The position numbers and the translations under genes are program-made. A stretch of 64,000 nt of DNA from Solitalea lacus (lineage in GTDB: Bacteria > Bacteroidota > Bacteroidia > Sphingobacteriales > Sphingobacteriaceae). The DNA is taken from NCBI RefSeq assembly GCF_022014595.1, contig NZ_CP091740.1:2406200-2470199 (forward strand), in the 5' to 3' direction. The notes beneath the pieces are model-generated. The model was not told the DNA's origin and made no database searches. It saw only the letters and a program-made list of their open reading frames with translations. Position 1 is the stretch's first letter. Each line of letters opens with the position of its first letter. This document shows, piece after piece, positions 53,475 to 58,941 of the stretch.

Positions 53475-54055
53475 AGTGCGTCAGGCATGTTTAATAGCTC
53501 TAGGGTGCAAGTCCCGAACACGCTTTGTAGTGGGAAGTGTTAGCCGACGGCAAGGGTGTCCTTCGCGAGAAGGAATCTGAAGGAAGCCCAAGGCAAACTC
53601 TCGAGCCTACGAACAGAAACTGTATAAGAGGCAGTCATGGCAGGATAAGATTGCTAAAGAAATCAAAGTCCCACACTACACAGATGCCATGAATGTATAT
53701 GCAGAGGCTACATGAGAGGAAAGCGATTAGACTTACCCTGAGAGATCTGATAACAATCTGGCAGCGGGAGAAGCAACCTAAAGCGGAAACAGCTTGCAGG
53801 GATGCAAGCACTGGTGTTATCAGAAGTCAGCAGAAGCCATAGTATTCCAAGTAATGTTGGGAAAAGGGCTGAATGTTAAAATTGGCAAGGAAACAGCTAA
53901 ATCATTTGAAGCGAAAAAAAAAAAAAAAAGCCGAAACACGTAAGAGAACTGTCTGCATGAGGAAAGGTCGGAAACCGAAAGTAGAATGCAGAAGGAGCTT
54001 AGCAGAAAATGAAAGAAACTGACGGAATTGCCCGAATGCGCTATCGGTTAAAGTA

Positions 54056-55333
54056 ATGCTAGAGAGAATATTCGACAGAAGGAACCTTGAAAGAGCCCTT
54101 GTTGCCGTAGAACGCAACCAAGGGGCAGCGGGTATTGACCATCTGCAGAGCGATGAACTTCGCCCCTATGTAAATGCCCACTATCAAGCCCTACTGAAAA
54201 GTATACTCCAAGGCACTTATGAGCCACAACCCGTGCGGAAAGTAGAAATACGCAAACCACAGGGTGGCAAAAGAATGCTAGGAATTCCTTGTGTAGTGGA
54301 CAGGATGCTGCAACAAGCGGTCTCCCAATGGCTAATTCCGCAGTACGAACAGGAATTTAACGAAAACAGCTTTGGTTTCAGGCCGGGTAAGAATGCCCAT
54401 AAGGCAGTAATGACTGCCCAAAAGTACCTTAACACAGGCCGGGAATGGATAATAGAGCTGGATTTGGAGAAATTCTTCGACAAGGTAAACCACCAGCAAC
54501 TACTGGGTTTACTAAGTAAGAAGATTGCGGACAAACGCACCCTAAAACTAGTCAGCCTTTACCTGAAAAGCGGCATAATGGAAGGCGGAGTGCTAAGCCC
54601 TCGCAGCGAAGGTACCCCTCAAGGTAGCCCGCTAAGCCCATTGCTTTCCAACATCATTTTAAATGAGCTGGACAAGGAGTTGGTAAAGCGGGGACATAAA
54701 TTTGTGCGTTATGCCGATGATTGCAGTATCTATGTACAAAGTAAGAAAGCAGCCCAAAGAGTAGCTGCCGGAATCATAGAATACATAGAAAAGGAGCTAC
54801 TACTAAAGGTAAACAGGGTAAAGACGAAAATCAGCCGACCCTCCAACAGCTACCTGCTTGGCTTCAGCTTTTATAAAACAAAGAAAGGCTGGCAGATTAG
54901 AATAGGAGAACAGCCCTTCCAAAGGGTGAAAGAAAAATGTAAAAGGATAACCCAATCAAGTAACCCCAGCCCAGAAGCAAACAAGCTTAAAAAGCTCGAT
55001 GAAATCATCAGAGGCTGGGTAAACTACTTTAAAATCGCCAATGCGAGAAGTAAAATGGAGAAACTTGATGAATGGTTAAGAACCCGATTGCGAATCAACA
55101 CCTGGAGGAGATGGAAACGGATACGAACCAAAGTCTCCAACCTAATAAAACTCGAAGTAGGAAAATCATTGGCCTATCAGTGGGGCAACACAAGTAAAGG
55201 TGCAGCCAGAGTTGCACACAGCCCCATTTTACTTAGAACGCTGAATATCAGCTACTGGAAAAAGAAAGGCTATTGGGGTTTTCAGCATTATTATTGTCAA
55301 TGGCAAGCCGATGGGCAACCGTCGTTATTTTAA
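54056..55333 (+). CDS. ltrA: Group II intron reverse transcriptase/maturase, copy 1
   Basis: 425 residues. RT blocks are visible in order: GAAGIDHL (RT0/1), KPQGGKRMLGIP (RT2), SFGFRPGKNAH (RT2a), ELDLEKFFDKVNH (RT3), GTPQGSPLSPLLSN (RT4), the catalytic YADD in VRYADDCSIYV (RT5), then LLGFSFY (RT7). The thumb/maturase X domain follows (RGWVNYFKIANAR). The C-terminus lacks DNA-binding and HNH endonuclease domains, typical of class C. It helps the intron splice and reverse-transcribe itself into DNA. Confidence 0.95.
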   Translation: MLERIFDRRNLERALVAVERNQGAAGIDHLQSDELRPYVNAHYQALLKSILQGTYEPQPVRKVEIRKPQGGKRMLGIPCVVDRMLQQAVSQWLIPQYEQEFNENSFGFRPGKNAHKAVMTAQKYLNTGREWIIELDLEKFFDKVNHQQLLGLLSKKIADKRTLKLVSLYLKSGIMEGGVLSPRSEGTPQGSPLSPLLSNIILNELDKELVKRGHKFVRYADDCSIYVQSKKAAQRVAAGIIEYIEKELLLKVNRVKTKISRPSNSYLLGFSFYKTKKGWQIRIGEQPFQRVKEKCKRITQSSNPSPEANKLKKLDEIIRGWVNYFKIANARSKMEKLDEWLRTRLRINTWRRWKRIRTKVSNLIKLEVGKSLAYQWGNTSKGAARVAHSPILLRTLNISYWKKKGYWGFQHYYCQWQADGQPSLF

Positions 55334-55336
55334 CAA

Positions 55337-55413
55337 ACCGCCGTATACGAGAACCGTACGTACGGTGGTGTGAGAGGACAGATAGGGAAATAATCCCTAT
55401 CTTCCTACTCGAT
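55337..55413 (+). ncRNA. Group II intron domains V and VI, copy 1
   Basis: Domain V: ACCGCCGTA (55337-55345) pairs with TACGGTGGT (55361-55369), TACG with CGTA, with the conserved two-base CG bulge at 55359-55360. The catalytic triad reads CGC, as in class C. Domain VI: GATAGGGA/TCCCTATC (55381-55401) with a candidate branch-point A at 55407, seven bases from the 3' end. Confidence 0.85.
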
Positions 55414-55516
55414 GTGCGTCAGGCATGTTTAATAGCTCTAGGGTGCAAGTCCCGAACACGCTTTGTAGTGGGAAGTGTTAGCCGACGGCAAGGGTGTCCT
55501 TCGCGAGAAGGAATCT

Positions 55517-55521
55517 GAAGG
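55517..55521 (+). repeat. 5-bp direct repeat at the left junction of the IS (pairs with 57100-57104)
   Basis: GAAGG at 55517-55521 and again at 57100-57104, while intact copy 1 has it once. It is either a target duplication or, more likely in this family, the short sequence shared by donor and target at the recombination core. Confidence 0.75.
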
Positions 55522-55603
55522 CCGTATGTTTGTAAAGGAATAAGTTCCAGGAAGTTATGTAAATTTAAGAAAGAACCCCTAAAATTTTATAACACTGGAA
55601 CTT

Positions 55604-56683
55604 ATGCAACCACAAGTTAATCAATTAGATTTTAGCGGTCAAAACATTTATGTTGGTTTTGACGTGCACTTAAAAAGCTGGCAGGTTACCGTTATGACTG
55701 AACTGCTCACCCATAAAACCTTTTCGCAGCCACCTAAACCCGAAGTATTACACCAGTATCTCCGGCAGAATTTCCCCGGCGGCACCTATCATTCCGCCTA
55801 CGAAGCAGGCTTCTGCGGCTACTGGATCCATAACCGCTTGGAGGCTCTGGGCATTCACTCCATCGTGGTCAATCCTGCCGATATTCCCACCACCGATAAA
55901 GAAAAAGTGCAAAAAGAGGATTCCAGGGATAGCCGTAAAATCGCACACTCATTAAGAAGTGGCGCCTTAATCCCGATTTATGTTCCTTCCAGTAAAACCC
56001 TAGAGGACCGTTGTTTAGTTCGCACCCGGTCCATACTGACCAAGGACCTTGCCCGGTATAAAAACCGGGTAAAATCGTTCCTGTACTTTCATGGCATTGA
56101 ACTACCTGCGCCCTTCACCAAAAAACAGTCCCACTGGTCGAAACCTTTTGTTGATTGGCTGGAAAGCATCGCTATGGCTGAGCAGAGTAGTAAAACGGCC
56201 CTGCAGGCCATGATTTTAGAAGCGAAACATTTGAGAGCCTCTGTATTGCAACTCACCCGGCATTTACTAGAGCTATCAAAAACAGGTACTTACCAGGAAG
56301 CCATCGCTTTACTGCGAAGTATCCCTGGCATCGGATTATTAACGGCCATGACCTTATTAACCGAGCTGGAGACGATTAACCGGTTTAAAAACACGGATCA
56401 ACTCTGCAGTTTTATAGGACTCATCCCCTCGACGCATTCAAGTGGGGAAAAAGAACTAGCCGGTACTATCACCCGACGGGGGCATAGCGTGCTGCGCAGC
56501 GCCCTGATTGAAAGTGCATGGGTAGCCGCACGCCTGGATCCGGCACTGACTAAAAGTTTTCATGAGTATTGCCGGCGAATGGAACCGAATAAGGCCATCG
56601 TAAGAATAGCCCGGAAATTACTCAACAGAATCAGGTATGTATTAATAAACAAACAAGAATATGAGTGTGCAGTGGTTAAATAA
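55604..56683 (+). CDS. IS110/IS1111-family transposase
   Basis: 359 residues. An N-terminal RuvC-like DEDD domain (GFDVHLKSW with the first Asp; YEAGFCGYW with Glu; KEDSRDSRKIA with the last Asp pair) is followed by a coiled linker and a C-terminal Transposase_20 domain with LRSIPGIGLLTAMTLLTEL and FIGLIPSTHSSG, where the Ser is the likely nucleophile. Full length with no frameshift, so it may be active. Confidence 0.95.
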   Translation: MQPQVNQLDFSGQNIYVGFDVHLKSWQVTVMTELLTHKTFSQPPKPEVLHQYLRQNFPGGTYHSAYEAGFCGYWIHNRLEALGIHSIVVNPADIPTTDKEKVQKEDSRDSRKIAHSLRSGALIPIYVPSSKTLEDRCLVRTRSILTKDLARYKNRVKSFLYFHGIELPAPFTKKQSHWSKPFVDWLESIAMAEQSSKTALQAMILEAKHLRASVLQLTRHLLELSKTGTYQEAIALLRSIPGIGLLTAMTLLTELETINRFKNTDQLCSFIGLIPSTHSSGEKELAGTITRRGHSVLRSALIESAWVAARLDPALTKSFHEYCRRMEPNKAIVRIARKLLNRIRYVLINKQEYECAVVK

Positions 56684-56696
56684 AACTAAAACGCCA

Positions 56697-57047
56697 TATA
56701 AAAACATCCTTTTAATCTGAGACTGATAACACGCTTCCTGCAGTGCTGGTCATTCTGTATCTGCTATCTGAAGGCTACAGCTCACTATCTATAAAAAATT
56801 AAACACGGCATTGCAGCCCGATTTACCGGTTCTGCTAATAGAAGGATGTTTTTATAGGCTTTTAGTTCATTGAAAAGACAGGTGTGTCTGAAGATTCAGG
56901 GCAAGAGAGTTTTCTTTAGCCATTTAGGACAATGAATACAGCAAAAAAGCCCCTGTCATTGTGGGGCTTCAAAGCTATATTCACCGTCATAAATCCTATT
57001 GCTGGTGAGTTGCTCTCCAGCAGCGCCCACTTCCTCTTCGGATTTAT
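56697..57047 (+). ncRNA. Candidate bridge (guide) RNA of the IS110-family element
   Basis: The right non-coding end folds into nested stems. Domain A: perfect 15-bp outer stem 56697-56711 / 56842-56856; inside it CTGCAGTGC (56738-56746) / GCATTGCAG (56808-56816), and CTGTA (56755-56759) / TACAG (56776-56780) closing a 16-base loop that contains ATCTGAAGG, identical to the target in the intron. ATAGAAGG (56838-56845) equals the right junction of the element. Domain B: ATAAATCC (56989-56996) / GGATTTAT (57040-57047) around GCTGG/CCAGC. Between them AAGCCCC/GGGGCTT forms another hairpin. The exact transcript ends are not known. Confidence 0.55.
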
Positions 57048-57576
57048 ATCACAAAGGTAATCATTAAAAAAACTTCCAGATCTCTTGCTTTACAACATAG
57101 AAGGAAGCCCAAGGCAAACTCTCGAGCCTACGAACAGAAACTGTATAAGAGGCAGTCATGGCAGGATAAGATTGCTAAAGAAATCAAAGTCCCACACTAC
57201 ACAGATGCCATGAATGTATATGCAGAGGCTACATGAGAGGAAAGCGATTAGACTTACCCTGAGAGATCTGATAACAATCTGGCAGCGGGAGAAGCGCAAC
57301 CTAAAGCGGAAACAGCTTGCAGGGATGCAAGCACTGGTGTTATCAGAAGTCAGCAGAAGCCATAGTATTCCAAGTAATGTTGGGAAAAGGGCTGAATGTT
57401 AAAATTGGCAAGGAAACAGCTAAATCATTTGAAGCGAAAAAAAAAAAAAAGCCGAAACACGTAAGAGAACTGTCTGCATGAGGAAAGGTCGGAAACCGAA
57501 AGTAGACTGCAGAAGGAGCTTAGCAGAAAATGAAAGAAACTGACGGAATTGCCCGAATGCGCTATCGGTTAAAGTA

Positions 57577-58854
57577 ATGCTAGAGAGAATATTCGACAGA
57601 AGGAACCTTGAAAGAGCCCTTGTTGCCGTAGAACGCAACCAAGGGGCAGCGGGTATTGACCATCTGCAGAGCGATGAACTTCGCCCCTATGTAAATGCCC
57701 ACTATCAAGCCCTACTGAAAAGTATACTCCAAGGCACTTATGAGCCACAACCCGTGCGGAAAGTAGAAATACGCAAACCACAGGGTGGCAAAAGGATGCT
57801 AGGAATTCCTTGTGTAGTGGACAGGATGCTGCAACAAGCGGTCTCCCAATGGCTAATTCCGCAGTACGAACAGGAATTTAACGAAAACAGCTTTGGTTTC
57901 AGGCCTGGTAAGAATGCCCATAAGGCAGTAATGACTGCCCAAAAGTACCTTAACACAGGCCGGGAATGGATAATAGAGCTGGATTTGGAGAAATTCTTCG
58001 ACAAGGTAAACCACCAGCAACTACTGGGTTTACTAAGTAAGAAGATTGCGGACAAACGCACCCTAAAACTAGTCAGCCTTTACCTGAAAAGCGGCATAAT
58101 GGAAGGCGGAGTGCTAAGCCCTCGCAGCGAAGGTACCCCTCAAGGTAGCCCGCTAAGCCCATTGCTTTCCAACATCATTTTAAATGAGCTGGACAAGGAG
58201 TTGGTAAAGCGGGGACATAAATTTGTGCGTTATGCCGATGATTGCAGTATCTATGTACAAAGTAAGAAAGCAGCCCAAAGAGTAGCTGCCGGAATCATAG
58301 AATACATAGAAAAGGAGCTACTACTAAAGGTAAACAGGGTAAAGACGAAAATCAGCCGACCCTCCAACAGCTACCTGCTTGGCTTCAGCTTTTATAAAAC
58401 AAAGAAAGGCTGGCAGATTAGAATAGGAGAACAGCCCTTCCAAAGGGTGAAAGCGAAATGTAAAAGGATAACCCAATCAAGTAACCCCAGCCCAGAAGCA
58501 AACAAGCTTAAAAAGCTCGATGAAATCATCAGAGGCTGGGTAAACTACTTTAAAATCGCCAATGCGAGAAGTAAAATGGAGAAACTTGATGAATGGTTAA
58601 GAACCCGATTGCGAATCAACACCTGGAGGAGATGGAAACGGATACGAACCAAAGTCTCCAACCTAATAAAACTCGAAGTAGGAAAATCATTGGCCTATCA
58701 GTGGGGCAACACAAGTAAAGGTGCAGCCAGAGTTGCACACAGCCCCATTTTACTTAGAACGCTGAATATCAGCTACTGGAAAAAGAAAGGCTATTGGGGT
58801 TTTCAGCATTATTATTGTCAATGGCAAGCCGATGGGCAACCGTCGTTATTTTAA
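57577..58854 (+). CDS. ltrA: Group II intron reverse transcriptase/maturase, copy 2
   Basis: 425 residues, identical to the copy 1 protein except for one residue near position 295 (KAKCK instead of KEKCK), so all RT motifs including YADD and the X domain are intact. It has the same start context as copy 1. Although its own intron is interrupted by the IS, the protein could still be made and act on copy 1 RNA. Confidence 0.95.
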   Translation: MLERIFDRRNLERALVAVERNQGAAGIDHLQSDELRPYVNAHYQALLKSILQGTYEPQPVRKVEIRKPQGGKRMLGIPCVVDRMLQQAVSQWLIPQYEQEFNENSFGFRPGKNAHKAVMTAQKYLNTGREWIIELDLEKFFDKVNHQQLLGLLSKKIADKRTLKLVSLYLKSGIMEGGVLSPRSEGTPQGSPLSPLLSNIILNELDKELVKRGHKFVRYADDCSIYVQSKKAAQRVAAGIIEYIEKELLLKVNRVKTKISRPSNSYLLGFSFYKTKKGWQIRIGEQPFQRVKAKCKRITQSSNPSPEANKLKKLDEIIRGWVNYFKIANARSKMEKLDEWLRTRLRINTWRRWKRIRTKVSNLIKLEVGKSLAYQWGNTSKGAARVAHSPILLRTLNISYWKKKGYWGFQHYYCQWQADGQPSLF

Positions 58855-58857
58855 CAA

Positions 58858-58934
58858 ACCGCCGTATACGAGAACCGTACGTACGGTGGTGTGAGAGGAC
58901 AGATAGGGAAATAATCCCTATCTTCCTACTCGAT
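58858..58934 (+). ncRNA. Group II intron domains V and VI, copy 2
   Basis: Same sequence and fold as in copy 1: domain V 58858-58890 with the CG bulge, and domain VI with the GATAGGGA/TCCCTATC stem. The 3' intron boundary is at 58934, eight bases from the ruvB stop. Confidence 0.85.
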
Positions 58935-58941
58935 AAACCTA

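Follow-up and report, generated by a model that had tools for sequence, protein, structure and literature searches.

The window analysed here is a stretch of 64,000 nucleotides of the Solitalea lacus genome (contig NZ_CP091740.1, positions 2,406,200 to 2,470,199). Two copies of the same group II intron stand in tandem in it, and the second is split in domain I by an insertion sequence (IS) that consists of a transposase gene and a long noncoding right end (Table 1). An earlier note, made from this DNA alone, had proposed that the right end, over the range 56697-57047, encodes the bridge RNA of an IS110-family element, with guides to target and donor. The proposal is borne out by covariation among homologues and by the copies of the element in the genome, and we put the probability that a bridge RNA (seekRNA) gene with two loops lies at 56717-56858 on the plus strand at about 0.93. 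This bridge RNA is of a known kind but has a new target. The proposed range was too wide, as positions 56968-57047 would belong to a second, opposite-strand RNA; this putative RNA, and not the bridge RNA, is the most novel item of the locus.

The element is an IS1111-type member of the IS110 family. Its length is 1,583 base pairs (bp) if the probable AG core is counted once. The transposase matches DEDD_Tnp_IS110 and Transposase_20 of Pfam (2e-11 and 5e-25), which is the DEDD (RuvC) and Transposase_20 domain pair of the IS1111 family, as well as the IS110 RNA-guided transposase of NCBIfam (1e-59) and, by sequence similarity in the PDB, the solved structures of IS621 (2e-7) and ISCro4 (5e-7). 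Its GLIPSTHSSG fits the published IS1111 C-terminal motif GL-P----S(t)G. The layout is the one described for IS1111 elements (PMC11187229): the gene has 83 noncoding bases 5' of its start and 420 bases 3' of its stop, the long stretch downstream of tnp being an IS1111 trait; the subterminal inverted repeats fit the 11-13 bp of the family with one single-base gap; and the genome copies are inserted without target duplication and in a single orientation relative to the target. The extensions past the repeats are 7 bp on the left and 3 bp on the right in IS1111, and their lengths here hinge on where the cut between core and repeat is placed. The core also accounts for a junction ambiguity of a few bases. 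An inverted repeat in the leader is a candidate for translational control of the transposase, and its arms co-vary in homologues, as judged by eye (TCTGG/CCAGA, TTTCAG/CTGAAA).

Table 1. Features of the interrupted intron and its insertion sequence, in window positions (^, point of insertion).
Feature	Position	Strand	Basis or remark
Intact group II intron, class C-like, behind terminator hairpin	53476..55412	+	Rfam RF02001, RF01998, RF00029
Maturase open reading frame of intact intron	54056-55333	+	domain searches
Second, tandem copy of same intron, split by IS in domain I	55413..58936	+	
Maturase open reading frame of second intron, intact	57577-58854	+	
Left junction AAG^G, target side, in second intron	55518..55521	+	comparison with empty site
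IS1111-type insertion sequence, ends GCCGTATG...ACATAGAAG	55521..57103	+	empty site in upstream intron; genome copies
Left subterminal inverted repeat TATGTTTGTAAAG	55525..55537	+	sequence
Inverted repeat AAGTTCCAG...CTGGAACTT, candidate leader hairpin	55542..55603	+	ends right before transposase start codon
Transposase, 359 amino acids, DEDD_Tnp_IS110 and Transposase_20, GLIPSTHSSG motif	55604..56683	+	Pfam, NCBIfam, PDB
Target-binding hairpin	56717..56785	+	stems 56717-56725/56778-56785, 56740-56748/56755-56764; RNAalifold, pair counts, 17 homologues
Right target guide ACGCUUCCU	56731..56739	+	pairs top strand AGGAAGC of target (AGGAAGCGT at self site)
Left target guide UAUCUGAAG	56765..56773	+	matches own left flanks across loci
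Donor-binding hairpin	56789..56858	+	stems 56789-56797/56849-56857, 56813-56820/56827-56835
Right donor guide ACGGC	56805..56809	+	pairs element's left end GCCGT
Left donor guide AAUAGAAGG	56837..56845	+	equals right end CATAGAAGG from second base on
Terminator of second RNA, AAGCCCC...GGGGCTTTTTT	ends ~56943	-	
Second structured RNA, putative	56943..57046	-	P1 56989-56996/57040-57047, S1 57005-57009/57026-57030
TACCTTTG, Bacteroidota -7 box (TAnnTTTG) for second RNA	57052..57059	-	
Right subterminal inverted repeat CTTTACAACATA	57088..57099	+	sequence
Right junction AG^GAAGCCC, target side	57102..57110	+	comparison with empty site

The anatomy of the system, the matching of its guides to target and donor, the covariation of its stems and its insertion at matching sites can all be read from the DNA. 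Homologues with 62-74% transposase identity were taken from Bacteroidota genomes, and the genome under study itself supplied an 82% relative. The flanks and both loops were read in a fixed register, which gave 16 loci for the left guide and 18 for the right guide; the register of the right guide was free to shift by up to 2 bases, equally for own and swapped pairs. The left target guide agreed with its own left flank at 6.4 of 8 bases (3.6 when flanks were swapped) and the right target guide with its own right flank at 6.7 of 8 bases, against 3.8; in each case, none of 100,000 permutations did as well, and the outcome was unchanged with a non-redundant set of 11. A conserved loop beside unrelated targets, which the earlier note had set against its own proposal, is the opposite of what was found, as the loops vary and match their own flanks. 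For example, at L019, the flanks are AAATGCAG and AGGAATGCAA, and the guides are AAACGCAG and the complement of AGGAATGCAA; at L022, CCGATAG and AGACAAT stand on the guide and flank sides alike. The 82%-identical relative carries a different left guide, UAUAAUUAG, and is located at TATTAATTAG. Guides likewise follow sites in two groups that are more distant and whose genomes each hold several copies.

The two loops can be told apart by what their guides follow. In the target loop, both guides match the target and covary with it; in the donor loop, the left guide is constant together with the right end of the element, and the right guide covaries with the left end. Thus, ATAGAAGG of the left donor guide is unchanged in 17 of 17 homologues, and the right end of the element is nearly invariant too. 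The right donor guide, which is absent from the earlier note's reading, paired with its own left end at 69 of 80 positions, where 62.5 were expected (16 loci; 0 of 100,000 permutations).

The comparative structure from RNAalifold (17 homologues) consists of two separate hairpins, and the internal loop of each holds exactly one guide pair. It was found that 97.1% of the cells are paired and that 14 of the 33 pairs have changes on both sides. Double-change cells numbered 28 against 6.9 in shuffles, a signal that was lost when partners were slid, and no shuffle equalled the observed structure on four of five measures. The stems therefore covary across the homologues, which had been put forward as a check, with compensatory changes in three of the four bridge RNA helices. 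The sequence landmarks given before were located again: ATCTGAAGG at 56766-56774, GCTTCC at 56733-56738, ATAGAAGG at 56838-56845 and the 15-bp stem 56697-56711/56842-56856. The nested stems in which they had been placed are indeed near the minimum for the single sequence (z = -4.3), but as sole structure this nested fold has to be replaced by the two hairpins of the comparative data. The guide that reads the top strand (56731-56739) lies 5' of the one that reads the bottom strand (56765-56773), which is the published IS1111 order (PMC11187229). A search of the bridge RNA against Rfam returned no family.

The empty site can be read from the intact upstream intron as GGAATCTGAAGGAAGCCC, that is, GGAATCTGAAG^GAAGCCC. 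The target ATCTGAAGGAAGC lies inside domain I, on the invariant aaUCUGAAGGAAgcc of the RF02001 consensus (Rfam D1D4-3), and the insertion nucleotide falls inside the invariant UCUGAAGGAA. Because the UCUGAAGGAAGC motif that serves as target is invariant in domain I, a single guide is enough to reach all introns of this class in the cell. Insertion splits domain I, so that splicing is likely lost, and the maturase gene remains intact. The genome (4.40 Mb, one contig) holds 11 near-identical copies of the element, all at sites that resemble the guides; nine are identical over 1,582 compared bases, one has a one-base difference and one is split by another copy. Eight are in group II introns at one shared nucleotide, one is in the guide gene of another copy, and the remaining two are at other CTGAAGG sites (ATACTGAAG^GGAGCG, L004; CTCTGAAG^GAGTGG, L007). 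The RF02001 introns of the genome number 16, with eight filled, spanning at least three sequence types, and eight empty, each of which has the exact ATCTGAAGGAAGC. Introns interrupted at the target were found only in this genome among 396 sampled Bacteroidota genomes and viral contigs.

A filled intron could also spread by itself, and it might be argued that the guide is real but that the IS reached several introns by riding with a self-copying loaded intron, rather than through a guided insertion each time. Two loaded introns that stand at different terminators, L087 and L088a, share ~1.8 kb without a difference and are unlike other type-B introns and distinct from all empty introns; the pair could represent two insertions into duplicate introns or the movement of a loaded intron. 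As a general account, such riding is unlikely, because the introns that carry the IS fall into three or more diverged types (35-55% identical when roughly aligned), the loaded L091 does not differ, apart from its IS, from two of the empty introns, and three copies are not in introns at all.

A second alternative would deny the RNA its role as a guide: the transposase itself would recognise the target, and the right-end RNA would only regulate transposase expression, as proposed for Asr9/Ssr9 of ISPpu9. In ISPpu9, of the IS110 family, two small RNAs are regulatory and the leader folds into an inhibitory structure (PMC8450116); the element here combines an inverted repeat in the leader with a second RNA. 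However, among homologues whose transposases are related, both loops differ along with the target, and the experimentally studied relatives use the RNA as a guide, which makes this alternative very improbable. The argument by which the earlier note had set chance aside, namely that a 9-base match is unlikely to be accidental, did not stand up, since a 9-mer of the 24-bp target turns up on either strand in 300 of 5,000 dinucleotide-shuffled right ends; the evidence from homologues is independent of any such shuffle-based estimate. A passive match, whether a captured piece of a former target or short matches by chance, can nevertheless be dismissed almost entirely despite these 6% of shuffles, because guides and targets covary in fixed register in 16-18 loci with different targets and because both target guides occur in the observed order within 60 nucleotides in only one of 20,000 shuffles of the right end.

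Some observations weigh against the bridge RNA as described. The closing stem of the donor hairpin is ambiguous: the helix varies on one side only, and two copies of TATAAAAA further upstream, at 56697-56711 and at 56789-56797, are alternative partners for its 3' arm. Both pairings are preserved in most homologues, and the one with 56697-56711 is the stronger in 16 of 17 sequences, so that the bridge RNA may switch closures or the longer form may be a precursor. The right donor guide is only 5 bp long and shows no core dinucleotide, which is visible in both target guides and in the left donor guide. Finally, the sites at L004 and L007 and the self-insertion site described below match the guides only partly.

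The eleventh copy (L002, within L001) interrupts another copy, to which it runs in reverse, precisely within the right-target guide, at GCTTC^CTGCAG (L086 1786-4950, genome about 848485-851650). On the other strand the site reads CACTGCAG^GAAGCGTG, and as a target it is CACTGCAGGAAGCG; the conserved stem CTGCAG beside the guide happens to resemble the other target half, CTGAAG. The host copy has lost its intact guide. This reveals a built-in weakness: the DNA of the right-target guide necessarily complements half a target, and the element can therefore insert into guide genes of its own kind. An earlier description of self-insertion into a guide was not found in the literature searched, which did not cover most subscription papers.

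The route to insertion would begin with an excised element that closes to a circle, where a promoter at the junction probably drives the bridge RNA. Within the element, the sequence 5' of the bridge RNA shows no evident promoter, and a sigma-70 promoter scan gave nothing informative, as expected for Bacteroidota. Promoters in this phylum follow a -33/-7 pattern, and this is fitted by TTG-N20-TATGTTT[GA], which the joined ends give in homologues with both ends. In the present element, the circle junction reads AGAAGGCCGTATG, in which TTG 57085-57087 is the candidate -33 element and TATGTTTG of the left repeat fits the -7 box after end joining. A circle promoter was shown for ISEc11 (IS1111 family), and the candidate here is in line with it. 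By analogy with characterised relatives, the bridge RNA would bind the transposase; its first hairpin would then read the target ATCTGAAG^GAAGC, with the left guide UAUCUGAAG on the bottom strand and the right guide ACGCUUCCU on the top strand, and the second hairpin would read the joined element ends. Recombination at the shared core, probably AG, would leave the IS inserted in one orientation without target duplication. For this system, we infer transcription, RNA processing, protein binding and catalysis.

The stretch 3' of the bridge RNA is common to all copies and to most homologues, down to 46% transposase identity. On the minus strand, it would give an RNA of ~100 nucleotides, in which an invariant core GAAGAGGAA-stem-GCUCUGCUGGAGAGCAAC-stem-CCAGCAAUA lies within a closing helix. 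In this region (A2), 37 double-change cells were counted against 10.7 in shuffles; with 31 sequences, in an alignment fitted to the structure, there were 106 against 34. A pseudoknot of GCUGG with CCAGC is possible, and its pairs hardly vary. The asymmetry of G-U pairs favours the minus strand; the plus strand is less likely, as mismatches that turn into G-U pairs on the minus strand outnumber the reverse 20 to 6 and 25 to 13. In 19 of 25 homologues, a TAnnTT[TC]N box precedes the RNA at a constant position, and a terminator-like hairpin with a T-rich tail follows it in most sequences. No Rfam family corresponds to it.

In this genome, the model of the second RNA (R1) matches only copies and remnants of this IS type. 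In other Bacteroidota, the RNA adjoins Mutator-family transposases (L121, L122, L126, L127, L131) and IS3-type integrases (L129, L130, L134). At all eight of these loci the RNA and the transposase gene point towards each other; in seven, 56-91 bases separate the RNA from the end of the open frame, and in L131 the two overlap. It also stands beside an IS110 gene in the other orientation (L128), at five loci with no transposase identified alongside (L119, L120, L132, L133, L135) and, in the plasmid collection, in one Emticicia plasmid. On balance, we lean towards an undescribed module that is shared by different kinds of transposon (IS1111/IS110, Mutator/IS256 and IS3) and perhaps acts on a common host or RNA-level process. 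As for its function, control of the transposase transcript opposite would be the likeliest guess, and a sponge for a host factor the main alternative.

Among known systems, the closest are the IS1111 seekRNA elements ISEc11, ISKpn4 and ISPa11 (Siddiquee et al. 2024, PMC11187229). The element shares with them the DEDD transposase, the long noncoding region after tnp, the subterminal inverted repeats, the absence of target duplication and the position of the top-strand guide 5' of the bottom-strand guide. It differs in that it is aimed at the catalytic core of group II introns, in the donor loop described here, in the second, minus-strand RNA of the right end and in the one natural insertion into its own guide. 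With the bridge RNA of IS621 (IS110 group; Durrant et al. 2024, PMC11208160), it has in common a pair of hairpins, one for the target and one for the donor, each with a left and a right guide; unlike in IS621, the RNA is in the right end rather than the left, the right guide comes before the left guide, and the inverted repeats are long. ISPpu9, with Asr9 and Ssr9 (PMC8450116), is also an IS110-family element with two small RNAs and a leader able to hide the ribosome-binding site, which the leader inverted repeat here recalls. However, the second RNA of ISPpu9 is antisense to the leader, whereas the one here lies in the right end, converges on tnp, has a structure of its own and is common to other IS families. 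Finally, IS110/IS1111 elements at repetitive extragenic palindromic (REP) and attC sites (PMC1525189, PMC11187229) also use a conserved repeated sequence as landing site; here, by contrast, the landing site is a mobile ribozyme, and no report of an IS110/IS1111 element that lands in one was found in the literature searched.

Several side observations concern relatives and the introns. In an IS relative at L021 (3610-3878), a single donor loop is preceded by two tandem target-binding loops, of which only the second agrees with the current target (GGCAGGGG); this double loop is possibly a snapshot of retargeting. Related elements in the same bacterial family (L066, L069, L074, L076, L078, L079) are found at palindromes of the type GGGGCG..CGCC, with fitting guides. 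No relatives of the element were found in viral contigs, and the plasmid collection held only transposases with <60% identity. In the tandem introns (window 53476-58936; L088 1660-5450), one intron is inserted where another ends, with little or nothing in between, and the last hairpin of the upstream intron may serve as a terminator-like landing site for the next.

Taken as a whole, the genome offers a natural experiment on RNA-guided insertion, with one guide, ~10 insertion sites, and filled and matched empty sites side by side; the same genome adds a relative whose guide and insertion site are both different. If real, the second RNA would be a new RNA module common to different transposon families. 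The guide itself directs a DNA transposon to the best-conserved motif of a ribozyme retroelement, and one mobile element thus preys on another wherever it goes.
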